Origin: Utricularia gibba
Taxonomy: Eukaryota > Streptophyta > Magnoliopsida > Lamiales > Lentibulariaceae
Assembly: GCA_002189035.1 (NCBI GenBank)
Contig: NEEC01000016.1
Span: 62,001 to 126,000, forward strand
Direction: 5' to 3'
DNA: 64,000 bases
The notes below the pieces were generated by a model. It had not been told where the DNA came from. It searched no databases and saw only the letters and a list, made by a program, of their open reading frames with translations. Positions 6,526 to 64,000 of the stretch are shown one piece after another (the first letter of the stretch is position 1; each line of letters starts with the position of its first letter). Made by a program: the position numbers and the translations under genes.

Positions 6526-6554
6526 ATATATTAACGAATCACGCGTGTTTCGCA

Positions 6555-6765: not shown

Positions 6766-7189
6766 GTATGCTGTGTGTCGCGTGACTCTAAACGGTTTGG
6801 ACGATGTGGCGTCAATGGCGAAGGCTGCGCGAGGCCACCCCTTAATGTAGGAATTCCCAGGGCCCGAGCACACAGAAACGCATGAGAATGCCGCGAAATT
6901 CAAGATTTTGACATATATTAACGAATCACGCGTGTTTCGCAAGCCGAGAATTTTCGCATAAAAACGAGCAAAGGAGTCGTCCCCAATGGCTAGGCCATTT
7001 TGTGACACCATTCAAGGCTTATATAGGGCCATCCGTCGAGCTTCGAACTTTCCTCGGATGGGCGAACTCCCAACACGAAAAACGATCGTCTCAGAATGAG
7101 CTTCGAAACGGTATGCTGTGTGTCGCGTGACTCTAAACGGTTTGGACGATGTGGCGTCAATGGCGAAGGCTGCGCGAGGCCACCCCTTA

Positions 7190-8589: not shown

Positions 8590-8725
8590 AAGTCCCATGA
8601 GAAACAAGCATGAGAATGCATGTGGGGCAAATTCCGGCAAAAAACGATCACTTCGAAACGGTATGCTGTGTGTCGCGTGACTCTAAACGGACCCCGAAAA
8701 CACCCGAGCTGAGAATGCCGCGAAA
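8590..8725 (+). repeat. Rearranged 439-bp monomer interval
   Basis: Linker 2 of the unit starting at 8369 is followed by CATGAGAATGCATGTGGGGC and AAATTCCGGC. A second copy of the block A start (CTTCGAAACGGTATGCTG, near 8652) then reads to CTAAACGG and stops. After ACCCCGAAAACACCCGAGC it joins GAGAATGCCGCG of block B. The interval to the next start at 8808 is therefore 439 bp. Confidence 0.7.
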
Positions 8726-9469
8726 TTCAAGATTTTGACATATATTAACGAATCACGCGTGTTTCGCAATCCGAGATCGCATAAAACGAGCAAACGAGTC
8801 CCAACGTCCCCAATGGCTAGGCCATTTTGTGACACCATTCAAGGCTTATATAGGCCATCCGTCGAGCTTCGAACTTTCCTCGCGAACTCCCAACACGAAA
8901 AACGATCGTCTCAGAATGAGCTTCGAAACGGTATGCTGTGTGTCGCGTGACTCTAAACGGTTTGGACGATGTGGCGTCAATGGCGAAGGCTGCGCGAGGC
9001 CACCCCTTGGTGTAGGAATTCCCAGGGCCCGAGCACACTCGGAGAAACGCATGAGAATGCCGCGAAATTCAAGATTTTGACATATATTAACGAATCACGC
9101 GTGTTTCGCAAGCCGAGAATTAATTTTCGCATAAAACGAGCAAAAGTTCCCCAATGGCTAGTTTTGTGACACCATTCAAGGCTTATATAGGCCATCCGTC
9201 GAGCTTCGAACTTTCCTCGGATGGGCGAACCCCAAAAAACGATCGTCTCCTTCGAAACGGTATGCTGTGTGTCGCGTGACTCTAAACGGTTTGGACGATG
9301 TGGCGTCAATGGCGAAGGCTGCGCGAGGCCACCCCTTGGTGTAGGAATTCCCAGGGCCCGAGCACACTTGAGAATGCCGCGAAATTCAAGATTTTGACAT
9401 ATATTAACGAATCACGCGTGTTTCGCAAGCCGAGAATAATTTTCGCATAAAAACGAGCAAAGGAGTCGC

Positions 9470-9550
9470 GAAATGGCTAGGGACCACTGTCCGACACTTT
9501 CCTCGGATTTCTCCGAATACACTCCGCGATCGTCTGGCGAACTTTAATGT
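9470..9550 (+). repeat. Collapsed monomer: start and end with a rearranged middle
   Basis: After GAGTCGCGAAATGGCTAG the sequence GGACCACTGTCCGACAC leads to CTTTCCTCGGATT, then TCTCCGAATACACTCCGCG and CGATCGTC. It then jumps to CTTTAATGTAGGAATTCCC, skipping all of block A. The next unit (9695) is also short, joining GGCTAG to TATGGCTTGTTCGAAACGG at about 9705-9735. Confidence 0.65.
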
Positions 9551-21400: not shown

Positions 21401-22198
21401 TGTCGCGTGACTCTAAACGGTTTGGACGATGTGGCGTCAATGGCGAAGGCTGCGCGAGGCCACCCCTTGGTGTAGGAATTCCCAGGGCCCGAGCACACCC
21501 GAGAAACGCATGAGAATGCCGCGAAATTCAAGATTTTGACATATATTAACGAATCACGCGTGTTTCGCAAGCCGAGAACAATTTTTTCGCATAAAAACGA
21601 GCAAAGGAGTCGCAACGTCCCCAATGGCTAGACCATTTTGTGACACCATTCAAGGCTTATATAGGGCCATCCGTCGAGCTTCGAACTTTCCTCGGATGGG
21701 CGAACTCCCAACACGAAAAACGACCGTCTCAGAATGAGCTTCGAAACGGTGCTGTGTGTCGCGTGACTCTAAACGGTTTGGACGATGTGGCGTCAATGCG
21801 AAGGCTGCGCGAGGCCACCCCTTGGTGTAGGAATTCCCAGGGCCCGAGCACACTCGGAGAAACGCATGAGAATGCCGCGAAATTCAAGATTTTGACATAT
21901 ATTAACGAATCACGCGTGTTTCGCAAGCCGAGAATAATTTTCGCATAAAAAACGAGCAAAGAGTCCAACGTCCCCAATGGCTAGGCCATTTTGTGACACC
22001 ATTCAAGGCTTATATAGGGCCATCCGTCGAGCTTCGAACTTTCCTCGGATGGGCGAACTCCCAACACGAAAAACGATCGTCTCGGAATGAGCTTCGAAAC
22101 GGTATGCTGTGTGTCGCGTGACTCTAAACGGTTTGGACGATGTGGCGTCAATGGCGAAGGCTGCGCGAGGCCACCCCTTAATGTAGGAATTCCCAGGC

Positions 22199-22212
22199 CC
22201 GAGCACACTCGG
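22199..22212 (+). other. Small inverted repeat in linker 2 (CCGAG-CACA-CTCGG)
   Basis: Five-base arms with a four-base loop are perfect in units of the CACTCGGAG class, as here. Units of the CACCCGTAG, CACCCGAG or CACTAG classes lack the right arm. The pairing is therefore polymorphic between subtypes and lies in a linker that varies freely, which argues against a conserved role. Confidence 0.5.
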
Positions 22213-22328
22213 AGAAACGCATGAGAATGCCGCGAAATTCAAGATTTTGACATATATTAACGAATCACGCGTGTTTCGCAAGCCGAGAATAATTTTCGCA
22301 TAAAAACGAGCAAAGAGTCGCAACGTCC

Positions 22329-22371
22329 CCAATGGCTAGGCCATTTTGTGACACCATTCAAGGCTTATATA
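22329..22371 (+). promoter_or_regulatory. CCAAT and TATATA words in promoter-like spacing, once per monomer
   Basis: CCAAT at 22329-22333 is followed 33 bp later by TATATA at 22366-22371. The same pair occurs in most units of the gcttatatagg class; in the gctaatataagg class the second word is weaker. Such words arise easily by chance and no transcript evidence is available, so this is only a possible start region for satellite transcription. Confidence 0.2.
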
Positions 22372-22374
22372 GGG

Positions 22375-22407
22375 CCATCCGTCGAGCTTCGAACTTTCCT
22401 CGGATGG
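22375..22407 (+). other. Nested inverted repeat (potential stem-loop), once per monomer
   Basis: CCATCCG at 22375-22381 pairs with CGGATGG at 22401-22407. The 19-base loop begins with TCGAGCTTCGA, itself an inverted repeat (TCGA-GCT-TCGA). In units with the T variant the outer stem loses one pair (CCATCC) but the inner one gains a pair (TTCGA-GCT-TCGAA). Both arms are kept in nearly all regular units. It could form a cruciform in DNA or a hairpin in a transcript; the sequence alone does not show that it does. Confidence 0.6.
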
Positions 22408-22441
22408 GCGAACTCCCAACACGAAAAACGATCGTCTCAGA

Positions 22442-22533
22442 ATGAGCTTCGAAACGGTATGCTGTGTGTCGCGTGACTCTAAACGGTTTGGACGATGTGG
22501 CGTCAATGGCGAAGGCTGCGCGAGGCCACCCCT
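22442..22533 (+). other. Invariant block A of the monomer
   Basis: This 92-bp block runs from ATGAGCTTCGAAACGG through GTGACTCTAAACGG and GTGGCGTCAATGGCGAAGG to GGCCACCCCT. It is almost unchanged in the regular units. Exceptions are the occasional loss of GT from GTGTGTCG, GTCAATTGCG instead of GTCAATGGCG, and a minority subtype with GGAGTTGTGG. Its second GAGCTTCGAA (22444-22453) repeats the word at 22384-22393. Confidence 0.8.
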
Positions 22534-22567
22534 TGTGTAGGAAGTCCCAGGGCCCGAGCACACTCGT

Positions 22568-22635
22568 AGAAACGCATGAGAATGCCGCGAAATTCAAGAT
22601 TTTGACATATATTAACGAATCACGCGTGTTTCGCA
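22568..22635 (+). other. Invariant block B of the monomer
   Basis: This 68-bp block runs from AGAAACGCATGAGAATGCCG through TTCAAGATTTTGACATATAT to CACGCGTGTTTCGCA. It is the most constant part of the unit: most copies show no change, and it survives largely intact within the scrambled region (for example 3715-3752). It contains the ACGCGT palindrome and an A/T-rich centre. Confidence 0.8.
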
Positions 22636-25600
22636 AGCCGAGAATAATTTTCGCATAAAAACGAGCAAAGAGTCGCAACGTCCCCAATGGCTAGGCCATT
22701 TTGTGACACCATTCAAGGCTTATATAGGGCCATCCGTCGAGCTTCGAACTTTCCTCGGATGGGCGAACTCCCAACACGAAAAACGACCGTCTCGGAATGA
22801 GCTTCGAAACGGTATGCTGTGTGTCGCGTGACTCTAAACGGTTTGGACGATGTGGCGTCAATGGCGAAGGCTGCGCGAGGCCACCCCTTGGTGTAGGAAG
22901 TCCCGGGGCCCGAGCACACCCGTAGAAACGCATGAGAATGCCGCGAAATTCAAGATTTTGACATATATTAACGAATCACGCGTGTTTCGCAAGCCGAGAT
23001 TAATTTTCGCATAAAAACGAGCAAAGGAGTCGCAACGTCCCCAATGGCTAGGCCATTTTGTGACACCATTCAAGGCTTATATAGGGCCATCCGTCGAGCT
23101 TCGAACTTTCCTCGGATGGGCGAACTCCCAACACGAAAAACGATCGTCTCAGAATGAGCTTCGAAACGGTATGCTGTGTGTCGCGTGACTCTAAACGGTT
23201 TGGACGATGTGGCGTCAATGGCGAAGGCTGCGCGAGGCCACCCCTTGGTGTAGGAATTCCCAGGGCCCGAGCACACCCGGAGAAACGCATGAGAATGCCG
23301 CGAAATTCAAGATTTTGACATATATTAACGAATCACGCGTGTTTCGCAAGCCGAGATTAGTTTTCGCATAAAAACGAGCAAAGGAGTCGCAACGTCCCCA
23401 ATGGCTAGACCATTTTGACACCATTCAAGGCTAATATAGGCCATCCGTCGAGCTTCGAACTTTCTCGGATGGGCGAACTCCCAACACGAAAAACGATCGT
23501 CTCAGAATGAGCTTCGAAACGGTATGCTGTGTGTCGCGTGACTCTAAACGGTTTGGACGATGTGGCGTCAATGGCGAAGGCTGCGCGAGGCCACCCCTTA
23601 ATGTAGGAATCCCAGGGCCCGAGCACACTCGAGAAACGCATGAGAATGCCGCGAAATTCAAGATTTTGACATATATTAACGAATCACGCGTGTTTCGCAA
23701 GCCGAGAATAATTTTCGCATAAAAACGAGCAAACGAGTCCCAACGTCCCCAATGGCTAGGCCATTTTGTGACACCATTCAAGGCTTATATAGGGCCATCC
23801 GTCGAGCTTCGAACTTTCCTCGGATGGGCGAACTCCAACACGAAAAACGATCGTCTCAGAATGAGCTTCGAAACGGTATGCTGTGTCGCGTGACTCTAAA
23901 CGGTTTGGACGATGTGGCGTCAATGGCGAAGGCTGCGCGAGGCCACCCCTTAATGTAGGAATTCCCAGGGCCCGAGCACACGGAGAAACGCATGAGAATG
24001 CCGCGAAATTCAAGATTTTGACATATATTAACGAATCACGCGTGTTTCGCAAGCCGAGAATAATTTTTCGCATAAAAACGAGCAAAGAGTCGCAACGTCC
24101 CCAATGGCTAGGCCATTTTGTGACACCATTCAAGGCTTATATAGGGCCATCCGTCGAGCTTCGAACTTTCCTCGGATGGGCGAACCCAACACGAAAAACG
24201 ATCGTCTCAGAATGAGCTTCGAAACGGTATGCTGTGTGTCGCGTGACTCTAAACGGTTGGACGATGTGGCGTCAATGGCGAAGGCTGCGCGAGGCCACCC
24301 CTTGGTGTAGAATTCCCAGGGCCCGAGCACACTCGGAGAAACGCATGAGAATGCCGCGAAATTCAAGATTTTGACATATATTAACGAATCACGCGTGTTT
24401 CGCAAGCCGAGAAGTTTTCGCATAAAAACGAGCAAAGGAGTCGCAATGTCCCCAATGGCTAGACCATTTTGACACCATTGAAGGCTAATATAAGGCCATC
24501 CTTCGAGCTTCGAACTTTCCTCGGATGGGCAAGCTCCCAACACGAAAAACGACCGTCTCAGAATGAGCTTCGAAACGGTATGCTGTGTGTCGCGTGACTC
24601 TAAACGGTTTGGACGATGTGGCGTCAATGGCGAAGGCTGCGCGAGGCCACCCCTTAATGTAGGAATTCCCAGGGCCCGAGCACACTCGGAGAAACGCATG
24701 AGAATGCCGCGAAATTCAAGATTTTGACATATATTAACGAATCACGCGTGTTTCGCAATCCGAGAATAATTTTCGCATAAAAACGAGCAAAGGAGTCGCG
24801 ATGTCCCCAATGGCTAGATTTTGTGACACCATTCAAGGCTAATATAGGGCCATCCGTCGAGCTTCGAACTTTCCTCGGATGGGCGAACTCCCAACACGAA
24901 AAACGATCGTCTCAGAATGAGCTTCGAAACGGTATGCTGTGTGTCGCGTGACTCTAAACGGTTTGGAGATGTGGCGTCAATGGCGAAGGCTGCGCGAGGC
25001 CACCCCTTAATGTAGGAATTCCCAGGGCCCGAGCACACTCGGAGAAACGCATGAGAATGCCGCGAAATTCAAGATTTTGACATATATTAACGAATCACGC
25101 GTGTTTCGCAAGCCGAGAATTTTTTTCGCATAAAAACGAGCAAAGGAGTCGCAATGTCCCCAATGGCTAGACCATTTTGACACCATTCAAGGCTTATATA
25201 GGGCCATCCGTCGAGCTTCGAACTTTCCTCGGATGGGCGAACTCCCAACACGAAAAACGATCGTCTCAGAATGAGCTTCGAAACGGTATGCTGTGTGTCG
25301 CGTGACTCTAAACGGTTTGGACGATGTGGCGTCAATGGCGAAGGCTGCGCGAGGCCACCCCTTGTGTAGGAAGTCCCGGGGCCCGAGCACACCGTAGAAA
25401 CGCATGAGAATGCCGCGAAATTCAAGATTTTGACATATATTAACGAATCACGCGTGTTTCGCAAGCCGAGAACAATTTTCGCATAAAAACGAGCAAAGGA
25501 GTCGCAACGTCCCCAATGGCTAGGCCATTTTGTGACACCATTCAAGGCTTATATAGGGCCATCCTTCGAGCTTCGAACTTTCCTCGGATGGGCGATTCCA

Positions 25601-28600
25601 ACACGAAAAACGACGTCTCAGAATGAGCTTCGAAACGGTGCTGTGTGTCGCGTGACTCTAAACGGTTTGGAGTTGTGGCGTCAATGCGAAGGCTGCGCGA
25701 GGCCCCCCTTGGTGTAGGAATTCCCAGGGCCCGAGCACACTCGGAGAAACGCATGAGAATGCCGCGAAATTCAAGATTTTGACATATATTAACGAATCAC
25801 GCGTGTTTCGCAAGCCGAGAACAATTTTCGCATAAAAACGAGCAAACGAGTCCCGTCCCCAATGGCTAGGCCATTTTGTGACACCATTGAAGGCTTATAT
25901 AGGGCCATCCGTCGAGCTTCGAACTTTCCTCGGATGGGCAACTCCCAACACGAAAAACGACCGTCTCGGAATGAGCTTCGAAACGGTATGCTGTGTGTCG
26001 CGTGACTCTAAACGGTTTGGACGATGTGGCGTCAATGGCGAAGGCTGCGCGAGGCCACCCCTTAATGTAGGAATTCCCAGGGCCCGAGCACACTCGGAGA
26101 AACGCATGAGAATGCCGCGAAATTCAAGATTTTGACATATATTAACGAATCACGCGTGTTTCGCAAGCCGAGATTAATTTTCGCATAAAAACGAGCAAAG
26201 GAGTCGCAACGTCCCCAATGGCTAGACCATTTTGACACCATTGAAGGCTAATATAGGCCATCCTTCGAGCTTCGAACTTTCCTCGGATGGGCAAGCTCCA
26301 ACACGAAAAACGACCGTCTCGAATGAGCTTCGAAACGGTATGCTGTGTGTCGCGTGACTCTAAACGGTTTGGACGATGTGGCGTCAATGCGAAGGCTGCG
26401 CGAGGCCACCCCTTAATGTAGGAATTCCCAGGGCCCGAGCACACTCGGAGAAACGCATGAGAATGCCGCGAAATTCAAGATTTTGACATATATTAACGAA
26501 TCACGCGTGTTTCGCAATCCGAGATAATTTTCGCATAAAAACGAGCAAAGGAGTCGCGATGTCCCCAATGGCTAGACCATTTTGTGACACCATTGAAGGC
26601 TAATATAAGGCCATCCGTCGAGCTTCGAACTTTCCTCGGATGGGCGAACTCCCAACACGAAAAACGACGTCTCAGAATGAGCTTCGAAACGGTATGCTGT
26701 GTGTCGCGTGACTCTAAACGGTTTGGACGATGTGGCGTCAATGGCGAAGGCTGCGCGAGGCCACCCCTTAATGTAGGAATCCCAGGGCCCGAGCACACCC
26801 GTAGAAACGCATGAGAATGCCGCGAAATTCAAGATTTTGACATATATTAACGAATCACGCGTGTTTCGCAAGCCGAGAATAATTTTCGCATAAAACGAGC
26901 AAAGGAGTCGCAACGTCCCCAATGGCTAGACCATTTTGTGACACCATTGAAGGCTAATATAAGGCCATCCTCGAGCTTCGAACTTTCCTCGGATGGGCGA
27001 ACTCCCAACACGAAAAACGACCGTCTCGGAATGAGCTTCGAAACGGTATGCTGTGTGTCGCGTGACTCTAAACGGTTTGGACGATGTGGCGTCAATGGCG
27101 AAGGCTGCGCGAGCCACCCCTTGGTGTAGGAATCCCAGGGCCCGAGCACACTCGAGAAACGCATGAGAATGCCGCGAAATTCAAGATTTTGACATATATT
27201 AACGAATCACGCGTGTTTCGCAAGCCGAGAAAATTTTCGCATAAAAACGAGCAAAGGAGTCGCAACGTCCCCAATGGCTAGACCATTTTGTGACACCATT
27301 CAAGGCTTATATAGGGCCATCCGTCGAGCTTCGAACTTTCCTCGGATGGGCGAACTCCCAACACGAAAAACGATCGTCTCAGAATGAGCTTCGAAACGGT
27401 ATGCTGTGTGTCGCGTGACTCTAAACGGTTTGGACGATGTGGCGTCAATGGCGAAGGCTGCGCGAGGCCACCCCTTGGTGTAGGAATCCCAGGGCCCGAG
27501 CACACTCGGAGAAACGCATGAGAATGCCGCGAAATTCAAGATTTTGACATATATTAACGAATCACGCGTGTTTCGCAAGCCGAGAACAATTTTCGCATAA
27601 AAACGAGCAAAGGAGTCGCAACGTCCCCAATGGCTAGGCCATTTTGTGACACCATTCAAGGCTTATATAGGGCCATCCGTCGAGCTTCGAACTTTCCTCG
27701 GATGGGCGAACTCCCAACACGAAAAACGACGTCTCGAATGAGCTTCGAAACGGTATGCTGTGTGTCGCGTGACTCTAAACGGTTTGGACGATGTGGCGTC
27801 AATGGCGAAGGCTGCGCGAGGCCACCCCTTGGTGTAGGAATTCCCAGGGCCCGAGCACACGGAGAAACGCATGAGAATGCCGCGAAATTCAAGATTTTGA
27901 CATATATTAACGAATCACGCGTGTTTCGCAAGCCGAGAATAATTTCGCATAAAAACGAGCAAACGAGTCCCAACGTCCCCAATGGCTAGGCCATTTTGTG
28001 ACACCATTGAAGGCTTATATAGGGCCATCCGTCGAGCTTCGAACTTTCCTCGGATGGGCGAGCTCCCAACACGAAAAACGACCGTCTCAGAATGAGCTTC
28101 GAAACGGTATGCTGTGTGTCGCGTGACTCTAAACGGTTTGGACGATGTGGCGTCAATGGCGAAGGCTGCGCGAGGCCACCCCTTGGTGTAGGAATCCCGG
28201 GCCCGAGCACACTCGTAGAAACGCATGAGAATGCCGCGAAATTCAAGATTTTGACATATATTAACGAATCACGCGTGTTTCGCAAGCCGAGAACAATTTT
28301 CGCATAAAAACGAGCAAAGGAGTCGCAACGTCCCCAATGGCTAGGCCATTTTGTGACACCATTGAAGGCTTATATAGGGCCATCCGTCGAGCTTCGAACT
28401 TTCCTCGGATGGGAACTCCCAACACGAAAAACGACCGTCTCGAATGAGCTTCGAAACGGTATGCTGTGTGTCGCGTGACTCTAAACGGTTTGGACGATGT
28501 GGCGTCAATGGCGAAGGCTGCGCGAGGCCACCCCTTGGTGTAGGAATCCCAGGGCCCGAGCACACCCGTAGAAACGCATGAGAATGCCGCGAAATTCAAG

Positions 28601-28683
28601 ATTTTGACATATTTAACGAATCACGCGTGTTTCGCAAGCCGAGAACAATTTTCGCATAAAAACGAGCAAAGGAGTCGCAACGT

Positions 28684-30094
28684 CCCCAATGGCTAGACCA
28701 TTTTGTGACACCATTGAAGGCTAATATAGGCCATCCTTCGAGCTTCGAACTTTCCTCGGATGGGCGAACTCCAACACGAAAAACGACCGTCTCAGAATGA
28801 GCTTCGAAACGGTTGCTGTGTGTCGCGTGACTCTAAACGGTTTGGACGATGTGGCGTCAATTGCGAAGGCTGCGCGAGGCCACCCCTTAATGTAGGAATT
28901 CCCAGGGCCCGAGCACACCGGAGAAACGCATGAGAATGCCGCGAAATTCAAGATTTTGACATATATTAACGAATCACGCGTGTTTCGCAAGCCGAGAATA
29001 ATTTTCGCATAAAAACGAGCAAAGGAGTCGCAACGTCCCCAATGGCTAGACCATTTTGTGACACCATTCAAGGCTTATATAGGGCCATCCGTCGAGCTTC
29101 GAACTTTCCTCGGATGGGCGAGCTCCCAACACGAAAAACGACCGTCTCGGAATGAGCTTCGAAACGGTATGCTGTGTGTCGCGTGACTCTAAACGGTTTG
29201 GACGATGTGGCGTCAATGGCGAAGGCTGCGCGAGGCCACCCCTTGGTGTAGGAAGTCCCGGGCCCGAGCACACCCGTAGAAACGCATGAGAATGCCGCGA
29301 AATTCAAGATTTTGACATATATTAACGAATCACGCGTTTCGCAAGCCGAGAACAATTTTCGCATAAAAACGAGCAAAGGAGTCGCAACGTCCCCAATGGC
29401 TAGACCATTTTGTGACACCATTGAAGGCTAATATAAGGCCATCCTTCGAGCTTCGAACTTTCCTCGGATGGGCGAATCCAACACGAAAAACGACCGTCTC
29501 AGAATGAGCTTCGAAACGGTTGCTGTGTGTCGCGTGACTCTAAACGGTTTGGACGATGTGGCGTCAATGGCGAAGGCTGCGCGAGGCCACCCCTTAATGT
29601 AGGAATTCCCAGGGCCCGAGCACACTCGGAGAAACGCATGAGAATGCCGCGAAATTCAAGATTTTGACATATATTAACGAATCACGCGTGTTTCGCAAGC
29701 CGAGAATAATTTTCGCATAAAAACGAGCAAAGGAGTCGCAACGTCCCCAATGGCTAGACCATTTTGTGACACCATTGAAGGCTAATATAGGCCATCCTTC
29801 GAGCTTCGAACTTTCCTCGGATGGGCAACTCCCAACACGAAAAACGACCGTCTCGGAATGAGCTTCGAAACGGTATGCTGTGTGTCGCGTGACTCTAAAC
29901 GGTTTGGACGATGTGGCGTCAATGGCGAAGGCTGCGCGAGGCCACCCCTTGGTGTAGGAATCCCAGGCCCGAGCACACTAGAAACGCATGAGAATGCCGC
30001 GAAATTCAAGATTTTGACATATATTAACGAATCACGCGTGTTTCGCAAGCCGAGAACAATTTTCGCATAAAAACGAGCAAACGAGTCGCAACGT
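28684..30094 (+). repeat. Local two-monomer alternation (~707-bp period)
   Basis: Units 28684 and 29391 share attGaagg, atccTtcgag, AATG in linker 2, gaataatttt and the rare one-base loss giving ACGGTTGCTGTG (at about 28810 and 29517). Units 29037 and 29745 share ctcGg, GGTG and gaacaatttt. The spacing of 707 bp is twice the monomer. A second pair, 34992 and 35696, shares the rare linker end CACCCATAG at 704 bp. Confidence 0.6.
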
Positions 30095-33000
30095 CCCCAA
30101 TGGCTAGGCCATTTTGTGACACCATTCAAGGCTTATATAGGGCCATCCGTCGAGCTTCGAACTTTCCTCGGATGGGCGAACTCCCAACACGAAAAACGAT
30201 CGTCTCAGAATGAGCTTCGAAACGGTATGCTGTGTGTCGCGTGACTCTAAACGGTTTGGACGATGTGGCGTCAATGGCGAAGGCTGCGCGAGGCCACCCC
30301 TTAATGTAGGAATTCCCAGGGCCCGAGCACACTCGGAGAAACGCATGAGAATGCCGCGAAATTCAAGATTTTGACATATATTAACGAATCACGCGTGTTT
30401 CGCAATCCGAGAATAATTTTCGCATAAAAACGAGCAAAGGAGTCGCATGTCCCCAATGGCTAGGCCATTTTGACACCATTGAAGGCTAATATAGGCCATC
30501 CTTCGAGCTTCGAACTTTCCTCGGATGGGCAACTCCAACACGAAAAACGACCGTCTCAGAATGAGCTTCGAAACGGTATGCTGTTGTGCGCGTGACTCTA
30601 AACGGTTTGGACGATGTGGCGTCAATGGCGAAGGCTGCGCGAGGCCACCCCTTAATGTAGGAATTCCCAGGGCCCGAGCACACTCGGAGAAACGCATGAG
30701 AATGCCGCGAAATTCAAGATTTTGACATATATTAACGAATCACGCGTGTTTCGCAATCCGAGAATAATTTTCGCATAAAAACGAGCAAAGGAGTCGCGAT
30801 GTCCCCAATGGCTAGACCATTTTGTGACACCATTCAAGGCTAATATAAGGCCATCCTTCGAGCTTCGAACTTTCCTCGGATGGGCAAGCTCCCAACACGA
30901 AAAACGATCGTCTCAGAATGAGCTTCGAAACGGTATGCTGTGTGTCGCGTGACTCTAAACGGTTTGGACGATGTGGCGTCAATGGCGAAGGCTGCGCGAG
31001 GCCACCCCCTGTAGGAATCCCAGGGCCCGAGCACACTAGAAACGCATGAGAATGCCGCGAAATTCAAGATTTTGACATATATTAACGAATCACGCGTGTT
31101 TCGCAAGCCGATTTTCGCATAAAAACGAGCAAAGGAGTCGCAACGTCCCCAATGGCTAGACCATTTTGTGACACCATTCAAGGCTAATATAGGCCATCCT
31201 TCGAGCTTCGAACTTTCCTCGGATGGGCGAACTCCAACACGAAAAACGATCGTCTCAGAATGAGCTTCGAAACGGTATGCTGTGTGTCGCGTGACTCTAA
31301 ACGGTTTGGACGATGTGGCGTCAATGGCGAAGGCTGCGCGAGGCCACCCCTTGGTGTAGGAATCCCGGGGCCCGAGCACACCCGTAGAAACGCATGAGAA
31401 TGCCGCGAAATTCAAGATTTTGACATATATTAACGAATCACGCGTGTTTCGCAAGCCGAGAAAATTTTCGCATAAAAACGAGCAAAGGAGTCGCATGTCC
31501 CCAATGGCTAGACCATTTTGACACCATTGAAGGCTAATATAGGCCATCCTTCGAGCTTCGAACTTTCCTCGGATGGGCAAGCTCCCAACACGAAAAACGA
31601 CCGTCTCGGAATGAGCTTCGAAACGGTATGCTGTGTGTCGCGTGACTCTAAACGGTTTGGACGATGTGGCGTCAATGGCGAAGGCTGCGCGAGGCCACCC
31701 CTTAATGTAGGAATTCCCAGGGCCCGAGCACACTCGGAGAAACGCATGAGAATGCCGCGAAATTCAAGATTTTGACATATATTAACGAATCACGCGTGTT
31801 TCGCAAGCCGAGAACAATTTTCGCATAAAAAACGAGCAAAGAGTCCAACGTCCCCAATGGCTAGGCCATTTTGTGACACCATTCAAGGCTTATATAGGCC
31901 ATCCTCGAGCTTCGAACTTTCCTCGGATGGGCGAACTCCAACACAAAAAAACGATCGTCTCAGAATGAGCTTCGAAACGGTATGCTGTGTGTCGCGTGAC
32001 TCTAAACGGTTTGGACGATGTGGCGTCAATGCGAAGGCTGCGCGAGGCCACCCCTTAATGTAGGAATTCCCAGGGCCCGAGCACACTCGGAGAAACGCAT
32101 GAGAATGCCGCGAAATTCAGATTTTGACATATATTAACGAATCACGCGTGTTTCGCAAGCCGAGATTAGTTTTCGCATAAAAACGAGCAAAGAGTCGCAA
32201 CGTCCCCAATGGCTAGGCCATTTTGTGACACCATTCAAGGCTTATATAGGGCCATCCGTCGAGCTTCGAACTTTCCTCGGATGGGCGATTTCCCAACACG
32301 AAAAACGATCGTCTCAGAATGAGCTTCGAAACGGTATGCTGTGTGTCGCGTGACTCTAAACGGTTTGGACGATGTGGCGTCAATGGCGAAGGCTGCGCGA
32401 GGCCACCCCTTGGTGTAGGAATTCCCAGGGCCCGAGCACACTAGAAACGCATGAGAATGCCGCGAAATTCAAGATTTTGACATATATTAACGAATCACGC
32501 GTGTTTCGCAAGCCGAGATTAGTTTTCGCATAAAAACGAGCAAAGGAGTCGCAATGTCCCCAATGGCTAGACCATTTTGAAACCATTGAAGGCTAATATA
32601 AGGCCATCCTCGAGCTTCGAACTTTCCTCGGATGGGCAACTCCCAACACGAAAAACGACCGTCTCAGAATGAGCTTCGAAACGGTATGCTGTGTGTCGCG
32701 TGACTCTAAACGGTTTGGACGATGTGGCGTCAATGGCGAAGGCTGCGCGAGGCCACCCCTTGTGTAGGAATTCCCAGGGCCCGAGCACACCGGAAAAACG
32801 CATGAGAATGCCGCGAAATTCAAGATTTTGACATATATTAACGAATCACGCGTGTTTCGCAAGCCGAGATAGTTTTCGCATAAAAACGAGCAAAGAGTCG
32901 CAACGTCCCAATGGCTAGGCCATTTGTGACACCATTCAAGGCTTATATAGGGCCATCCTTCGAGCTTCGAACTTTCCTCGGATGGGCGATTTCCCAACAC

Positions 33001-33260
33001 GAAAAACGATCGTCTCAGAATGAGCTTCGAAACGGTATGCTGTGTGTCGCGTGACTCTAAACGGTTGGACGATGTGGCGTCAATGGCGAAGGCTGCGCGA
33101 GGCCACCCCTTGGTGTAGGAATTCCCAGGGCCCGAGCACACTCGGAGAAACGCATGAGAATGCCGCGAAATTCAAGATTTTGACATATATTAACGAATCA
33201 CGCGTGTTTCGCAAGCCGAGATTAGTTTTCGCATAAAAACGAGCAAAGGAGTCGCAATGT

Positions 33261-33613
33261 CCCCAATGGCTAGACCATTTCTGAAACCATTGAAGGCTAA
33301 TATAGGCCATCCTTCGAGCTTCGAACTTTCCTCGGATGGGCAAGCTCCCAACACGAAAAAAGACCGTCTCAGAATGAGCTTCGAAACGAAATGCTTTGTG
33401 CCACGTGACTCTAAACGGTTTGGAAGTTGTGGCGTCAATTGCGAAGGCTGCGCGAGGCCACCCTTAATGTAGGAATTCCCAGGCCCGAGCACACTCGGAG
33501 AAACGCATGAGAATGCCGCGAAATTCAAGATTTTGACATATATTAACGAATCACGCGTGTTTCGCAATCCGAGAATAATTTTCGCATAAAAACGAGCAAA
33601 GGAGTCGCGATGT
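33261..33613 (+). repeat. Diverged monomer subtype (E) with linked block A changes
   Basis: Block A here reads GAAACGAAATGCTTTGTGCC, then CACGTGACTC, GGAAGTTGTGG and GTCAATTGCG, with a start of CTGAAACCATTGAAGG. The unit at 15641 has a matching set (GAAACGAAATTTTGTGCACG, GGAGTTGTGG, GTCAATTGCG). Partial sets occur at 11904, 12939, 25511 and 37106. The co-occurrence marks an older, separate lineage of monomers, interspersed singly among the common type. Confidence 0.65.
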
Positions 33614-33940
33614 CCCCAATGGCTAGACCATTTTGGGACACTATTGAAGGCTAATATAAGGCCATCCGTCGAGCTTCGAACTTTCCTCGGATGGGCGAAC
33701 TCCCAACACGAAAACGACCGTCTCGGAATGAGCTTCGAAACGGTATGCTGTGTGTCGCGTGACTCTAAACGGTTTGGACGATGTGGCGTCAATGGCGAAG
33801 GCTGCGCGAGGCCCCCTTAATGTAGGAATTCCCAGGGCCCGAGCACACTCGGAGAAACGCATGAGAATGCCGCGAAATTCAAGATTTTGACATATATTAA
33901 CGAATCACGCGTGTTTCGCAAGCGAGAACAATTTTCGCAT

Positions 33941-33980
33941 AAAAACGAGCAAAAACGAGCCCGGGGTTGGGTGGGCGGCC
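33941..33980 (+). other. 10-bp duplication plus a 20-bp G-rich non-satellite insert replacing a unit start
   Basis: AAAAACGAGC occurs twice in tandem (33941-33950 and 33951-33960). Then 33961-33980 reads CCGGGGTTGGGTGGGCGGCC, which resembles no part of the monomer. The unit resumes at CATTCGAGCTTCGAAC. The usual start of the monomer (anchor word, GTGACACCATT and TATATA region, about 60 bp) is missing. The G runs of 4, 3, 3 and 2 with one- or two-base spacers are close to, but short of, a classical four-run G-quadruplex. Confidence 0.85.
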
Positions 33981-36900
33981 CATTCGAGCTTCGAACTTTC
34001 CTCGGATGGGCGAACTCCAACACGAAAAACGATCGTCTCAGAATGAGCTTCGAAACGGTATGCTGTGTGTCGCGTGACTCTAAACGGTTTGGACGATGTG
34101 GCGTCAATGGCGAAGGCTGCGCGAGGCCACCCCTTAATGTAGGAATTCCCAGGGCCCGAGCACACTCGGAGAAACGCATGAGAATGCCGCGAAATTCAAG
34201 ATTTTACATATATTAACGAATCACGCGTGTTTCGCAAGCCGAGATTAGTTTTCGCATAAAAACGAGCAAAGGAGTCAACGTCCCAATGGCTAGGCCATTT
34301 TGTGACACCATTCAAGGCTTATATAGGGCCATCCGTTCGAGCTTCGAACTTTCCTCGGATGGGCGTTCCCAACACGAAAAACGATCGTCTCAGAATGAGC
34401 TTCGAAACGGTATGCTGTGTGTCGCGTGACTCTAAACGGTTTGGACGATGTGGCGTCAATGGCGAAGGCTGCGCGAGGCCACCCCTTGGTGTAGGAATTC
34501 CCAGGGCCCGAGCACACTCGGAGAAACGCATGAGAATGCCGCGAAATTCAAGATTTTGACATATATTAACGAATCACGCGTGTTTCGCAATCCGAGAATA
34601 ATTTTCGCATAAAAACGAGCAAAGGAGTCGCAATGTCCCCAATGGCTAGACCATTTTGTGACACATTGAAGGCTATATAAGGCCATCCGTCGAGCTTCGA
34701 ACTTTCCTCGGATGGGCGAACTCCCAACACGAAAAACGACCGTCTCGGAATGAGCTTCGAAACGGTATGCTGTGTGTCGCGTGACTCTAAACGGTTTGGA
34801 CGATGTGGCGTCAATGGCGAAGGCTGCGCGAGGCCACCCCTTAATGTGGGAATTCCCAGGGCCCGAGCACACTGAGAGAAACGCATGAGAATGCCGCGAA
34901 ATTCAAGATTTTGACATATATTAACGAATCACGCGTGTTTCGCAAGCCGAGAATAATTTTCGCATAAAAACGAGCAAAGGAGTCGCGATGTCCCCAATGG
35001 CTAGACCATTTTGGGACACATTGAAGGCTTATATAGGGCCATCCGTCGAGCTTCGAACTTTCCGGATGGGCGATTTCCCAACACGAAAAACGATCGTCTC
35101 AGAATGAGCTTCGAAACGGTATGCTGTGTGTCGCGTGACTCTAAACGGTTTGGACGATGTGGCGTCAATGGCGAAGGCTGCGCGAGGCCACCCCTTGGTG
35201 TAGGAAGTCCCGGGCCCGAGCACACCCATAGAAACGCATGAGAATGCCGCGAAATTCAAGATTTTGACATATATTAACGAATCACGCGTTTTCGCAATCC
35301 GAGAATTTTCGCATAAAAACGAGCAAAGGAGTCGCAACGTCCCCAATGGCTAGGCCATTTTGTGACACCATTCAAGGCTTATATAGGGCCATCCGTCGAG
35401 CTTCGAACTTTCCTCGGATGGGCTTCCCAACACGAAAAACGATCGTCTCAGAATGAGCTTCGAAACGGTATGCTGTGTGTCGCGTGACTCTAAACGGTTT
35501 GGACGATGTGGCGTCAATGGCGAAGGCTGCGCGAGGCCACCCCTTAATGTAGGAATTCCAGGGCCCGAGCACACTCGGAGAAACGCATGAGAATGCCGCG
35601 AAATTCAAGATTTTGACATATATTAACGAATCACGCGTGTTTCGCAATCCGAGAATAATTTTCGCATAAAAAAACGAGCAAAGGAGTCGCATGTCCCCCA
35701 ATGGCTAGACCATTTTGTGACACCATTCAAGGCTAATATAAGGCCATCCTTCGACTTCGAACTTTCCTCGGATGGGCGAAGCTCCCAACACGAAAAACGA
35801 TCGTCTCAGAATGAGCTTCGAAACGGTATGCTGTGTCGCGTGACTCTAAACGGTTTGGACGATGTGGCGTCAATGGCGAAGGCTGCGCGAGGCCACCCCT
35901 TGGTGTAGGAAGTCCCAGGCCGAGCACACCCATAGAAACGCATGAGAATGCGCGAAATTCAGGATTTTACATATATTAACGAATCACGCGTGTTTCGCAA
36001 TCCGAGAAAATTTTCGCATAAAACGCCAAAGGAGTCGCAACGTCCCCAATGGCTAGGACCATTTTGTGACACCATTCAAGGCTAATATAAGGCCATCCTT
36101 CGAGCTTCGAACTTTCCTCGGATGGGCGAACTTCCAACACGAAAAACGATCGTCTCAGAATGAGCTTCGAAACGGTATGCTGTGTGTCGCGTGACTCTAA
36201 ACGGTTTGGACGATGTGGCGTCAATGGCGAAGGCTGCGCGAGGCCACCCCTTGGTGTAGGAAGTCCCGGGGCCCGAGCACCCGAGAAACGCATGAGAATG
36301 CCGCGAAATTCAAGATTTTGACATATATTAACGAATCACGCGTGTTTCGCAAGCCGAGAATAATTTTCGCATAAAAACGAGCAAAGGAGTCGCAATGTCC
36401 CCAATGGCTAGACCATTTTTTGACACCATTCAAGGCTAATATAAGGCCATCCTTCGAGCTTCGAACTTTCCTCGGATGGGCAAGCTCCCAACACGAAAAA
36501 CGACCGTCTCAGAATGAGCTTCGAAACGGTATGCTGTGTGTCGCGTGACTCTAAACGGTTTGGACGATGTGGCGTCAATGGCGAAGCTGCGCGAGGCCAC
36601 CCCTTAATGTAGGAATTCCCAGGGCCCGAGCACACTCGGAGAAACGCATGAGAATGCCGCGAAATTCAAGATTTTGACATATATTAACGAATCACGCGTG
36701 TTTCGCAAGCCGAGAATTATTTTCGCATAAAAACGAGCAAACGAGTCCCAACGTCCCCAATGGCTAGGCCATTTTGTGACACCATTCAAGGCTTAATATA
36801 GGCCATCCGTCGAGCTTCGAACTTTCCTCGGATGGGCTTCCCAACACGAAAAACGATCGTCTCAGAATGAGCTTCGAAACGGTATGCTGTGTGTCGCGTG

Positions 36901-56154: not shown

Positions 56155-58954
56155 CCCCAATGGCTAGGCCATTTTGTGACACCATTCAAGGCTTATATAG
56201 GGCCATCCTTCGAGCTTCGAACTTTGGATGGGCCCAAACAAAAAAACGACCGTCTCGAATGAGCTTCGAAACGGTATGCTGTGTGTCGCGTGACTCTAAA
56301 CGGTTTGGAGATGTGGCGTCAATTGCGAAGGCTGCGCGAGGCCACCCCTTGGTGTAGGAAGTCCCAGGGCCCGAGCACACCGAGAAACGCATGAGAATGC
56401 CGCGAAATTCAAGATTTTGACATATATTAACGAATCACGCGTGTTTCGCAAGCCGAGAATTATTTTCGCATAAAAACGAGCAAACGAGTCCCAACGTCCC
56501 CAATGGCTAGGCCATTTTGTGACACCATTCAAGGCTTATATAGGGCCATCCGTCGAGCTTCGAACTTTCCTCGGATGGGCGAACTCCCAACACGAAAAAC
56601 GACCGTCTCAGAATGAGCTTCGAAACGGTATGCTGTGTGTCGCGTGACTCTAAACGGTTTGGACGATGTGGCGTCAATGGCGAAGGCTGCGCGAGGCCAC
56701 CCTTAATGTAGGAATTCCCAGGGCCCGAGCACACTGGAGAAACGCATGAGAATGCCGCGAAATTCAAGATTTTGACATATATTAACGAATCACGCGTGTT
56801 TCGCAAGCCGAGATTTTCGCATAAAAACGAGCAAAACGAGTCGCAACGTCCCCAATGGCTAGGCCATTTTGTGACACCATTCAAGGCTTATATAGGCCAT
56901 CCTTCGAGCTTCGAACTTTCCTCGGATGGGCACAACACGAAAAACGACCGTCTCAGAATGAGCTTCGAAACGGTATGCTGTGTGTCGCGTGACTCTAAAC
57001 GGTTTGGACGATGTGGCGTCAATGGCGAAGGCTGCGCGAGGCACCCCTTGGTGTAGGAAGTCCCAGGGCCCGAGCACATAGAAACGCATGAGAATGCCGC
57101 GAAATTCAAGATTTTGACATATATTAACGAATCACGCGTGTTTCGCAAGCCGAGAATATTTTCGCATAAAAACGAGCAAAGGAGTCGCAACGTCCCCAAT
57201 GGCTAGACCATTTTGTGACACCATTCAAGGCTAATATAGGCCATCCTTCGAGCTTCGAACTTTCCTCGGATGGGCGAACTCCCAACACGAAAAACGACCG
57301 TCTCGGAATGAGCTTCGAAACGGTATGCTGTGTGTCGCGTGACTCTAAACGGTTTGGACGATGTGGCGTCAATGGCGAAGGCTGCGCGAGGCCACCCCTT
57401 AATGTAGGAATTCCCAGGGCCCGAGCACACGAGAAACGCATGAGAATGCCGAAATTCAAGATTTTGACATATATTAACGAATCACGCGTGTTTCGCAAGC
57501 CGAGAAAATTTTCGCATAAAAACGAGCAAACGAGTCCAACGTCCCCAATGGCTAGGCCATTTTGTGACACCATTCAAGGCTTATATAGGGCCATCCTCGA
57601 GCTTCGAACTTTCCTCGGATGGGCCTTCCAACACGAAAAACGACCGTCTCGGAATGAGCTTCGAAACGGTATGCTGTGTGTCGCGTGACTCTAAACGGTT
57701 TTTGATGTGGCGTCAATTGCGAAGGCTGCGCGAGGCCACCCCTTGGTGTAGGAAGTCCCAGGGCCCGAGCACACTCGGAGAAACGCATGAGAATGCCGCG
57801 AAATTCAAGATTTTGACATATATTAACGAATCACGCGTGTTTCGCAAGCCGAGATTATTTTCGCATAAAAACGAGCAAACGAGTCCCAACGTCCCCAATG
57901 GCTAGCCATTTTGTGACACCATTCAAGGCTTATATAGGGCCATCCGTCGAGCTTCGAACTTTCCTCGGATGGGCGAACTCCCAACACGAAAAACGACCGT
58001 CTCGGAATGAGCTTCGAAACGGTATGCTGTGTGTCGCGTGACTCTAAACGGTTTGGACGATGTGGCGTCAATGGCGAAGGCTGCGCGAGGCCACCCCTTA
58101 ATGTAGGAATTCCCAGGGCCCGAGCACACTCGGAGAAACGCATGAGAATGCCGCGAAATTCAAGATTTTGACATATATTAACGAATCACGCGTGTTTCGC
58201 AATCCGAGAATAATTTTCGCATAAAAACGAGCAAAGGAGACGTCCCCAATGGCTAGACCATTTTGTGACACCATTCAAGGCTTATATAGGGCCATCCGTC
58301 GAGCTTCGAACTTTCCTCGGATGGGCGAACTCCCAACACGAAAAACGATCGTCTCAGAATGAGCTTCGAAACGGTATGCTTGTGTCGCGTGACTCTAAAC
58401 GGTTTGGACGATGTGGCGTCAATGGCGAAGGCTGCGCGAGGCCACCCCTTGGTGTAGGAAGTCCAGGGCCCGAGCACACCCGAGAAACGCATGAGAATGC
58501 CGCGAAATTCAAGATTTTGACATATATTAACGAATCACGCGTGTTTCGCAAGCCGAGAATAATTTTCGCATAAAAACGAGCAAAGGAGTCGCAATGTCCC
58601 CAATGGCTAGACCATTTTGTGACACCATTGAAGGCTAATATAAGGCCATCCTTCGAGCTTCGAACTTTCCTCGGATGGGCAAGCTCCCAACACGAAAAAC
58701 GACCGTCTCGGAATGAGCTTCGAAACGGTATGCTGTGTGTCGCGTGACTCTAAACGGTTTGGACGATGTGGCGTCAATGGCGAAGGCTGCGCGAGGCCAC
58801 CCCTTAATGTAGGAATTCCCAGGGCCCGAGCACACTCGGAGAAACGCATGAGAATGCCGCGAAATTCAAGATTTTGACATATATTAACGAATCACGCGTG
58901 TTTCGCAAGCCGAGAACAATTTTCGCATAAAAACGAGCAAACGAGTCCCAACGT
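56155..58954 (+). repeat. Four-monomer higher-order repeat, two consecutive copies
   Basis: Subtypes repeat a-b-c-d: a at 56155 and 57543, b at 56498 and 57893, c at 56850 and 58244, d at 57194 and 58598. Type a is marked by GTCAATTGCG, GGTG with aaGtccc, GATTATTTT and aaaCgag. Type d is marked by taGacc, atccTtcgag, ctcGg, AATG and aaaCgagtcC. Types b and c are less sharply defined here. Spacing of matching types is 1388-1404 bp. After 58955 the order is interrupted by units 58955-60014 that do not fit the pattern cleanly. Confidence 0.6.
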
Positions 58955-58997
58955 CCCCAATGGCTAGGCCATTTTGTGACACCATTCAAGGCTTATA
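58483..58997 (+). repeat. 515-bp segment identical to 60606-61120
   Basis: Read by eye, the segment from AGAAACGCATGAG in the unit starting 58244, through the whole 357-bp unit at 58598, to GGCTTATA in the following unit is the same as 60606-61120. The offset is 2123 bp, six monomers. Identity ends on the left at CCGAG against CCGTAG and on the right where 58997 lacks TATA present in the other copy. No two other neighbouring monomers that I compared are identical over this length. Confidence 0.7.
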
Positions 58998-60366
58998 GGG
59001 CCATCCGTCGAGCTTCGAACTTTCCTCGGATGGGCGAACTTCCAACACGAAAAACGATCGTCTCAGAATGAGCTTCGAAACGGTATGCTGTGTGTCGCGT
59101 GACTCTAAACGGTTTGGACGATGTGGCGTCAATGGCGAAGGCTGCGCGAGGCCACCCCTTGGTGTAGGAAGTCCCGGGGCCCGAGCACACCCGTAGAAAC
59201 GCATGAGAATGCCGCGAAATTCAAGATTTTGACATATATTAACGAATCACGCGTGTTTCGCAAGCCGAGAATTATTTTCGCATAAAAACGAGCAAACGAG
59301 TCGCAACGTCCCCAATGGCTAGGCCATTTTGTGACACCATTCAAGGCTTATATAGGGCCATCCGTCGAGCTTCGAACTTTCCTCGGATGGGCGATCCCAA
59401 CACGAAAAACGATCGTCTCAGAATGAGCTTCGAAACGGTATGCTGTGTGTCGCGTGACTCTAAACGGTTTGGACGATGTGGCGTCAATGGCGAAGGCTGC
59501 GCGAGGCCACCCTTGGTGTAGGAATTCCCAGGCCCGAGCACACGGAGAAACGCATGAGAATGCCGCGAAATTCAAGATTTTTGACATATATTAACGAATC
59601 ACGCGTGTTTCGCAATCCGAGAACAATTTTCGCATAAAAACGAGCAAAGGAGTCGCAACGTCCCCAATGGCTAGGCCATTTTGTGACACCATTCAAGGCT
59701 TATATAGGGCCATCCGTCGAGCTTCGAACTTTCCTCGGATGGGCTCCCAACACGAAAAACGATCGTCTCAGAATGAGCTTCGAAACGGTATGCTGTGTGT
59801 CGCGTGACTCTAAACGGTTTGGACGATGTGGCGTCAATGGCGAAGGCTGCGCGAGGCCACCCCTTAATGTAGGAATTCCCGGGCCCGAGCACACTCGGAG
59901 AAACGCATGAGAATGCCGCGAAATTCAAGATTTTGACATATATTAACGAATCACGCGTGTTTCGCAATCCGAGAATAATTTTCGCATAAAAACGAGCAAA
60001 GGAGTCGCAATGTCCCCAATGGCTAGCCATTTTGTGACACCATTCAAGGCTAATATAAGGCCATCCTTCGAGCTTCGAACTTTCCTCGGATGGCGAAGCT
60101 CCCAACACGAAAAACGACCGTCTCAGAATGAGCTTCGAAACGGTATGCTGTGTGTCGCGTGACTCTAAACGGTTTGGACGATGTGGCGTCAATGGCGAAG
60201 GCTGCGCGAGGCCACCCCTTGGTGTAGGAAGTCCCAGGGCCCGAGCACACCGGAGAAACGCATGAGAATGCCGCGAAATTCAAGATTTTACATATATTAA
60301 CGAATCACGCGTGTTTCGCAATCCGAGAAAATTTTCGCATAAAAACGAGCAAAGGAGTCGCAACGT

Positions 60367-63300
60367 CCCCAATGGCTAGACCATTTTGTGACACCATTCA
60401 AGGCTAATATAGGCATCCGTCGAGCTTCGAACTTTCCTCGGATGGGCGACTCCCAACACGAAAAACGATCGTCTCAGAATGAGCTTCGAAACGGTATGCT
60501 GTGTGTCGCGTGACTCTAAACGGTTTGGACGATGTGGCGTCAATGGCGAAGGCTGCGCGAGGCCACCCCTTGGTGTAGGAAGTCCCGGGGCCCGAGCACA
60601 CCCGTAGAAACGCATGAGAATGCCGCGAAATTCAAGATTTTGACATATATTAACGAATCACGCGTGTTTCGCAAGCCGAGAATAATTTTCGCATAAAAAC
60701 GAGCAAAGGAGTCGCAATGTCCCCAATGGCTAGACCATTTTGTGACACCATTGAAGGCTAATATAAGGCCATCCTTCGAGCTTCGAACTTTCCTCGGATG
60801 GGCAAGCTCCCAACACGAAAAACGACCGTCTCGGAATGAGCTTCGAAACGGTATGCTGTGTGTCGCGTGACTCTAAACGGTTTGGACGATGTGGCGTCAA
60901 TGGCGAAGGCTGCGCGAGGCCACCCCTTAATGTAGGAATTCCCAGGGCCCGAGCACACTCGGAGAAACGCATGAGAATGCCGCGAAATTCAAGATTTTGA
61001 CATATATTAACGAATCACGCGTGTTTCGCAAGCCGAGAACAATTTTCGCATAAAAACGAGCAAACGAGTCCCAACGTCCCCAATGGCTAGGCCATTTTGT
61101 GACACCATTCAAGGCTTATATAGGGCCATCCTTCGAGCTTCGAACTTTCCTCGGATGGGCAACTTCCAACACGAAAAACGACCGTCTCAGAATGAGCTTC
61201 GAAACGGTATGCTGTGTGTCGCGTGACTCTAAACGGTTTGGACGATGTGGCGTCAATTGCGAAGGCTGCGCGAGGCCACCCCTTGGTGTAGGAAGTCCCA
61301 GGGCCCGAGCACACGAGAAACGCATGAGAATGCCGCGAAATTCAAGATTTTGACATATATTAACGAATCACGCGTGTTTCGCAAGCCGAGAATATTTTCG
61401 CATAAAAACGAGCAAACGAGTCCCAACGTCCCCAATGGCTAGGCCATTTTGTGACACCATTCAAGGCTTATATAGGGCCATCCGTCGAGCTTCGAACTTT
61501 CCTCGGATGGGCGAACTCCCAACACGAAAAACGACCGTCTCGGAATGAGCTTCGAAACGGTATGCTGTGTGTCGCGTGACTCTAAACGGTTTGGACGATG
61601 TGGCGTCAATGGCGAAGGCTGCGCGAGGCCACCCCTTGGTGTAGGAATTCCCAGGGCCCGAGCACACCCGAGAAACGCATGAGAATGCCGCGAAATTCAA
61701 GATTTTGACATATATTAACGAATCACGCGTGTTTCGCAATCCGAGAAAAATTTTCGCATAAAAACGAGCAAAGGAGTCGCAACGTCCCCAATGGCTAGAC
61801 CATTTTGTGACACCATTCAAGGCTAATATAGGCCATCCTTCGAGCTTCGAACTTTCCTCGGATGGGCGACTCCCAACACGAAAAACGACCGTCTCAGAAT
61901 GAGCTTCGAAACGGTATGCTGTGTGTCGCGTGACTCTAAACGGTTTGGACGATGTGGCGTCAATGGCGAAGGCTGCGCGAGGCCACCCCTTGGTGTAGGA
62001 AGTCCCGGGGCCCGAGCACACCCGTAGAAACGCATGAGAATGCCGCGAAATTCAAGATTTTGACATATATTAACGAATCACGCGTGTTTCGCAAGCCGAG
62101 AATTAATTTTCGCATAAAAACGAGCAAAGGAGTCGCAACGTCCCCAATGGCTAGCCATTTTGTGACACCATTGAAGGCTTATATAAGGCCATCCTTCGAG
62201 CTTCGAACTTTCCTCGGATGGGCAACTCCCAACACGAAAAACGACCGTCTCGGAATGAGCTTCGAAACGGTATGCTGTGTGTCGCGTGACTCTAAACGGT
62301 TTGGACGATGTGGCGTCAATGGCGAAGGCTGCGCGAGGCCACCCCTTAATGTAGGAATTCCCAGGGCCCGAGCACACTCGGAGAAACGCATGAGAATGCC
62401 GCGAAATTCAAGATTTTGACATATATTAACGAATCACGCGTGTTTCGCAAGCCGAGAAAATTTTCGCATAAAAACGAGCAAACGAGTCCCAACGTCCCCA
62501 ATGGCTAGGCCATTTTGTGACACCATTCAAGGCTTATATAGGGCCATCCTTCGAGCTTCGAACTTTCCTCGGATGGGCGCTCCCAACACGAAAAACGACC
62601 GTCTCAGAATGAGCTTCGAAACGGTATGCTGTGTGTCGCGTGACTCTAAACGGTTTTGATGTGGCGTCAATTGCGAAGGCTGCGCGAGGCCACCCCTTGG
62701 TGTAGGAAGTCCCAGGGCCCGAGCACACCGAGAAACGCATGAGAATGCCGCGAAATTCAAGATTTTGACATATATTAACGAATCACGCGTGTTTCGCAAG
62801 CCGAGAATATTTTCGCATAAAAACGAGCAAACGAGTCCAACGTCCCCAATGGCTAGACCATTTTGTGACACCATTCAAGGCTTATATAGGGCCATCCGTC
62901 GAGCTTCGAACTTTCCTCGGATGGGCGAACTCCCAACACGAAAAACGACCGTCTCGGAATGAGCTTCGAAACGGTATGCTGTGTGTCGCGTGACTCTAAA
63001 CGGTTTGGACGATGTGGCGTCAATGGCGAAGGCTGCGCGAGGCCACCCCTTGGTGTAGGAATTCCCAGGGCCCGAGCACACCCGAGAAACGCATGAGAAT
63101 GCCGCGAAATTCAGATTTTGACATATATTAACGAATCACGCGTGTTTCGCAAGCCGAGAATAATTTTCGCATAAAAACGAGCAAAGGAGTCGCAACGTCC
63201 CCAATGGCTAGACCATTTTGTGACACCATTCAAGGCTAATATAGGCCATCCTTCGAGCTTCGAACTTTCCTCGGATGGGCGAGCTCCCAACACGAAAAAC

Positions 63301-64000
63301 GACCGTCTCAGAATGAGCTTCGAAACGGTATGCTGTGTGTCGCGTGACTCTAAACGGTTTGGACGATGTGGCGTCAATGGCGAAGGCTGCGCGAGGCCAC
63401 CCCTTTGTGGAAGTCCAGGGCCCGAGCACACTCGAGAAACGCATGAGAATGCCGCGAAATTCAAGATTTTGACATATATTAACGAATCACGCGTGTTTCG
63501 CAAGCCGAGAATAATTTTCGCATAAAAACGAGCAAAGGAGTCGCAACGTCCCCAATGGCTAGACCATTTTTGGACACCATTGAAGGCTAATATAAGGCCA
63601 TCCTTCGAGCTTCGAACTTTCCTCGGATGGGCAAGCTCCCAACACGAAAAACCGTCTCGGAATGAGCTTCGAAACGGTATGCTGTGTGTCGCGTGACTCT
63701 AAACGGTTTGGACGATGTGGCGTCAATGGCGAAGGCTGCGCGCGAGGCCACCCCTTAATGTAGGAATTCCCAGGGCCCGAGCACACTCGGAGAAACGCAT
63801 GAGAATGCCGCGAAATTCAAGATTTTGACATATATTAACGAATCACGCGTGTTTCGCAAGCCGAGAATAATTTTCGCATAAAAACGAGCAAACGAGTCCC
63901 AACGTCCCCAATGGCTAGGCCATTTTGTGACACCATTCAAGGCTTATATAGGGCCATCCTTCGAGCTTCGAACTTTCCTCGGATGGGCAACTCCCAACAC
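60367..64000 (+). repeat. Four-monomer higher-order repeat (~1.41 kb), about 2.5 copies, running off the window
   Basis: Order: c 60367, d 60721, a 61078, b 61430, c 61786, d 62142, a 62496, b 62844, c 63199, d 63550, a 63906. Matching types are 1408-1421 bp apart, four times the monomer. Type a units at 61078 and 62496 share atccTtcgag, GTCAATTGCG, aaGtccc, the short linker GAATATTTTCGC and aaaCgagtcC. Type b units at 61430 and 62844 share atccGtcgag, gcgaactccc, ctcGg, GGTG and CACCCGAG. Type c units share taGacc and ggctaatatagg. Type d units share attGaagg, atccTtcgag, ctcGg, AATG and CACTCGGAG. Differences between copies are small indels in the linkers. Confidence 0.75.
60606..61120 (+). 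repeat. Partner copy of the 515-bp identical segment
   Basis: This is the second copy of the segment at 58483-58997, containing the full unit 60721-61077. It sits inside the four-monomer repeat as its type d unit, and the first copy is also a type d unit. The offset is six monomers, so two extra units lie between them relative to a strict four-unit period. Confidence 0.7.

Follow-up and report, generated by a model that had tools for sequence, protein, structure and literature searches.

Higher-order repeats (HORs), in which blocks of several satellite monomers recur as a unit, have been termed widespread in plants and animals, and among 171 species with Sanger data 76 showed clear HORs (PMC4053949); this count does not support the suggestion in the original prediction that such structures are less often documented in plants. 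Long HORs of 792 and 1,131 bp have been reported in switchgrass (PMC4053949), and in poplar they occur in centromeric (Palv156) and non-centromeric (Palv148) arrays alike (PMC12046899). These plant HORs, with those of Arabidopsis CEN178, share with the Utricularia gibba locus described here local multi-monomer blocks of varying unit size and similarity across consecutive monomers, while our locus differs in having a 353/357-bp monomer and in apparently occupying one to few loci. Human alpha-satellite HORs likewise have same-position monomers of successive units that are more alike than neighbours; here, in contrast, there are three units only and the unit length varies along the array. The CENP-B box (TTCGNNNNANNCGGG) had no match with one mismatch or fewer on either strand of the satellite consensus. 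Plant subtelomeric satellites of ~350 bp, which include rice TrsA and the rye 350-bp family, are similar to ours in monomer length and head-to-tail arrangement. Because HORs are well documented in plants (PMC4053949; PMC12046899), the patch reported below is a further case of a known structure.

The window analysed is a stretch of 64,000 nucleotides (C402:62001-126000) from an assembly of 100.1 Mb in 516 contigs; positions below are window positions unless a contig is named, and all satellite features lie on the plus strand. The entire window (1-64000) is a head-to-tail satellite array with monomers of ~353 bp as assembled, and a search of the window found no minus-strand copies. The array extends on C402 from base 1 to ~140.5 kb and covers at least 139 kb, and the satellite on the five contigs where it was seen (C74, C382, C385, C402 and C410) sums to ~381 kb, a total that counts all of C385 and drops by ~13 kb when its gene-bearing end is excluded. 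Within the window, an irregular stretch (2365-10386) has monomer spacings of 172-1025 bp and 86-93% identity to the consensus, and no piece of it longer than 82 bp is unmatched to the satellite. Monomer identity to the consensus falls toward both array edges, from 92 to 69% on the right and from 79 to 66% on the left, as is usual when exchange homogenises the core of an array. The consensus shows no ~176-bp internal similarity indicative of a half-monomer structure, the longest stop-free stretch in the tandem consensus is 94 codons, and Rfam gave no match for the window, the right flank or two other end loci.

We read the right end of the window as a small HOR patch within a large, homogenised plant satellite array, where a block of four monomers was duplicated in tandem, and we assign this reading a probability of about 80%. 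Eleven monomers (60253-64000) form a four-monomer order with about three repeats (11-12 copies when the next monomer is included), and monomers four apart are spaced 1409-1420 bp, in agreement with the predicted order and its spacing of ~1.41 kb (1408-1421 bp). Unit 1 (60253-61669) comprises four ~353-bp monomers starting at 60253, 60604, 60962 and 61315, and unit 2 (61670-63083) comprises monomers starting at 61670, 62024, 62381 and 62730. Unit 3 (63084-64000, monomers at 63084, 63434 and 63790) is truncated by the window end, its fourth monomer lying at 64144-64495. Agreement at single-nucleotide polymorphism (SNP) columns between units 1 and 2 is 0.96, 0.88, 0.96 and 0.96 at lag 4 (4, 2, 2 and 1 substitutions), and that between units 2 and 3 is 0.82, 0.87, 0.91 and 0.79. 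The left edge of the patch is abrupt at 60253, the preceding monomer (59898) having a lag-4 agreement of 0.58. On the right the register of unit 3 is gone from 63434 on, and the edge falls at 63434-64144 (0.59, 0.72 and 0.42), beyond which similarity appears at lags 7 and 11. The second monomer type of the block is found at 58482, 60604, 62024, 63434, 64496 and 65893; judged from spacing and similarity, these recurrences would correspond to intervals of 6, 4, 4, 3 and 4 monomers. The pattern had been expected to continue past the right end of the window, where instead the following interval is three monomers and the register is broken.

Across the eleven monomers, full-sequence identity is 97.24% at lag 4, compared with 94.6-95.1% at lags 1, 2, 3 and 5, which is the lag-4 excess that the original prediction called for. 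When the comparison is restricted to 27 polymorphic columns, which uses substitutions alone and sidesteps indel noise, agreement is 0.909 at lag 4 (z 4.0) and 0.845 at lag 8 (z 2.1), and 0.55-0.69 at the remaining lags (1-3 and 5-7). Same-position monomers of successive units are therefore closer to each other than adjacent monomers are. Nine consecutive lag-4 pairs (agreement of at least 0.79) exceed all 400 shuffles of monomer order (200 global and 200 local within 30-monomer blocks, with runs scored at lags 1-12), whose maximum was seven, so that the three units form a tandem multi-monomer repeat beyond chance. In sliding 16-monomer windows the patch reached permutation p values of 0.004-0.008, uncorrected for 70 windows. 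Taken together, the identity, SNP agreement, shuffle and sliding-window results confirm that the four-monomer pattern in the patch is real, in a small sample of three units that was picked out by a reader.

The lag-4 signal is present in substitutions alone, the units differ from one another by 1-4 substitutions in each monomer and hence are not the same set of reads entered twice, and like blocks occur on another contig (C74), all of which makes it unlikely that the pattern arose, or was inflated, when noisy reads from a nearly identical array were collapsed or misjoined in assembly. Signs of such an assembly do exist: C402 begins within the array, the satellite is fragmented over five contigs, and deletions strongly favour polymorphic positions. 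The deletion rate per monomer is 7.8% (0.078) in common-SNP columns versus 0.64% (0.0064) in near-invariant columns, a 12-fold difference, and deletion-hot columns coincide with SNP columns with an odds ratio of 43 (p 2e-15). Concentrations of deletions are seen at monomer columns 79, 110, 112, 130, 156, 200-205, 222, 229, 335, 340 and 355-357. Near-identical monomer pairs (two substitutions or fewer) differ at 6.9 indel columns in C402 versus 0.44 near the unique flank of C385, where monomers have lengths of 356-358 bp and few deletions; this control is imperfect, as its monomers belong partly to another subfamily and are mostly 90-94% identical to the consensus. Independent evolution would not be expected to remove the polymorphic bases selectively, and a consensus caller working on mixed reads from several near-identical copies plausibly does so. 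Based on the deletions at SNP columns and the cleaner C385 control, most single-base indels in the window look like consensus noise, and the true monomer is probably ~357 bp and the true unit ~1.43 kb, as opposed to the assembled 353 bp and ~1.41 kb. Since the indels between unit copies look like assembly noise, they are unusable for dating. In this noisily assembled core, a consensus drawn from reads of several copies could likewise weaken linkage or produce mosaic monomers.

The same noise bears on one of the two markers that matching monomer types had been said to share and that had been taken to be rare. The first, GTCAATTGCG (61252-61261, also 62666-62675 and nine further window sites), is a real substitution class at monomer column 298; the window has 11 copies of it and the C402 array 24, which is hardly rare. 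The second, GAATATTTTCGC (61390-61401, also at 62805, 57154 and 49770), looks like an unreliable one-base deletion beside polymorphic columns; it occurs four times in the window and five times in the C402 array, and ten times genome-wide inside a 45-mer. Caution is warranted where a satellite array was assembled with noisy long reads, as indels there can mimic monomer markers.

With the four-monomer patch taken as real, its extent within the array can be considered. A four-monomer HOR running through the whole array, as in many human alpha-satellite arrays, would fit another lag-4 patch, located at C402:49.4-57.6 kb (z 4.5; 8 consecutive monomers, window position -12232), which lies 72 kb from the first, and a weak lag-4 excess on C410 (z 2.5), but is very unlikely given that the excess is absent in the window at 17-57 kb (z -0.2) and on C74 and C382, that the register is lost just past the window, and that lags 11, 22 and 34 are as strong as lag 4 or stronger elsewhere. 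In the assembled sequence no single HOR unit thus runs throughout as in a homogenised alpha-satellite-type array; other lags dominate elsewhere, and the pattern is one of several local periods and not a satellite-wide property. The array contains a run of 23 consecutive monomers alike at lag 22, and shorter ones of 13 (lag 34), 9-16 (lag 10) and 7 monomers (lag 7). Left of the window (C402:9968-42000), duplications of ~7.8 kb (lag 22, 23 monomers) and ~11.9 kb (lag 34, 13 and 10 monomers) exceed the four-monomer pattern in size. Near the left array edge, C385 (reverse complement, 18352-34408) carries monomers of mainly 356-358 bp in recurring blocks, and at lags 4-11 several pairs show zero substitutions, an HOR-like organization in a diverged subfamily. 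Chance likeness of monomers chosen by eye is hardly credible, for although monomer types recur often and distant monomers commonly match, the ordered runs top every shuffle, including those within 30-monomer blocks, and none of the 400 reached nine.

Tandem duplication of a local block, which remains our preferred reading, is accompanied by related blocks in other places. A four-monomer block at 58133-59544, in another register, resembles unit 1 at lag 6 (agreement 0.91, 0.96, 0.83 and 0.82; 4, 1, 4 and 5 substitutions). Unit-1-like blocks are found at contig positions 49.8-55 kb, at window positions 47218 and 58133, and on C74; their substitutions total 11-18, compared with a background median of 47. 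Four neighbouring monomers would have been duplicated in tandem, probably twice, to give three units, after which point mutations and conversion over short tracts would have made the copies diverge. Unequal exchange between copies out of alignment, or whole-monomer slippage during break repair, probably drove this, and the runs at lags 7, 10/11, 22 and 34 would stem from the same kind of event elsewhere in the array and at other times. While period, boundaries and copy number are observed directly, a mechanism of unequal exchange and conversion is suggested by whole-monomer duplications of varied size, by the decay toward the edges and by short-range linkage. Register shifts in the array come in whole monomers. 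Linkage between SNPs, strong at distances from a few bases to tens of bases (r up to 0.84), weakens farther apart within the monomer, which is consistent with short-tract exchange. The beaten shuffles, the sharp edges and the related blocks elsewhere accordingly support the predicted amplification of a local block of several monomers, and the description of this amplification as recent holds in a relative sense only, unit copies differing by 1-4 substitutions per monomer. The patch is without evident function of its own and represents ordinary satellite turnover; the array as a whole may serve as structural chromatin, in the form of a knob-like block or a centromere.

PMC8333044 mentions a PacBio assembly of U. 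gibba of ~100 Mb with four putatively complete chromosomes and, citing the genome paper, links putative centromere features to absent satellite repeats, a statement that concerns putative centromeric regions only. An apparently one-locus array of ~381 kb conflicts with the idea that this species lacks satellites altogether. Genome-wide counts made with short patterns (a core 25-mer, not the whole monomer) gave 877 occurrences, and all 349 copies in forward orientation are on C402. Among the matches listed, the 25-mer was on C74, C382, C385, C402 and C410 and on none of C1-C73, so that no satellite was seen on the telomere-bearing contigs C1-C3, of which C3 has telomere repeats at both ends. 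The satellite thus seems restricted to a single locus or a few in the ~100-Mb genome, which is not the distribution of a centromeric satellite present on most chromosomes. It is possible, though on balance doubtful, that one chromosome, on which the telomere would be followed by 0.94 Mb, then by at least 0.38 Mb of satellite and then by 2.63 Mb, has this array as its centromere, the other centromeres having been described as satellite-free. If so, a satellite centromere would be forming or surviving on one chromosome, and the local HOR patches would mark its ongoing turnover.

The setting of the array is more useful than the patch itself, as the array is directly flanked by genes and is missing beside the homeologous copy of one flank. 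On the right a gene starts within a few hundred bases of the array (first exon C402:140711-140977), which we take to be EDR2-like; Pfam had no match for its two exon pieces, and the sole other genome match of the first exon is weak (23% identity, C413). On the left, C385 leaves the array at ~28.4 kb into dense genes (C385:31445-41444), the first ~3 kb from the edge, which include glycosyltransferase, EMP70/TM9SF, KNOX1 and PB1 genes. C411 starts in the array edge of C385 (99.98% identity) and reaches a TTTAGGG telomere 943 kb on. A subtelomeric satellite was considered and rejected, since at least 0.94 Mb of C411, with genes in it, separates the array edge from the telomere, which sets the array apart from the plant subtelomeric satellites of similar monomer length. 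We infer that C385 and C402 bound one and the same array, and the most economical order is a telomere, 0.94 Mb of sequence, the array and a further 2.63 Mb, with the array interstitial. A region of C505 is homeologous to the C385 flank (EMP70 90% identical), and the adjacent 10 kb (C505:2926001-2936000) contains no satellite. Its open reading frames are presumably pectate lyase-, NBP35- and HPPD-like, and the NBP35- and HPPD-like genes, which lie beyond the left flank on C505, are single copy in the genome. The array therefore offers a small system in which to watch satellite growth and to ask about a one-chromosome satellite centromere. The C402 end at 2.63 Mb is not telomeric; this far end (C402:2624908-2629907), for which Rfam gave no match, carries a different tandem repeat of ~2.33 kb, with copies 98.9% identical and internal units of 62-63 bp.
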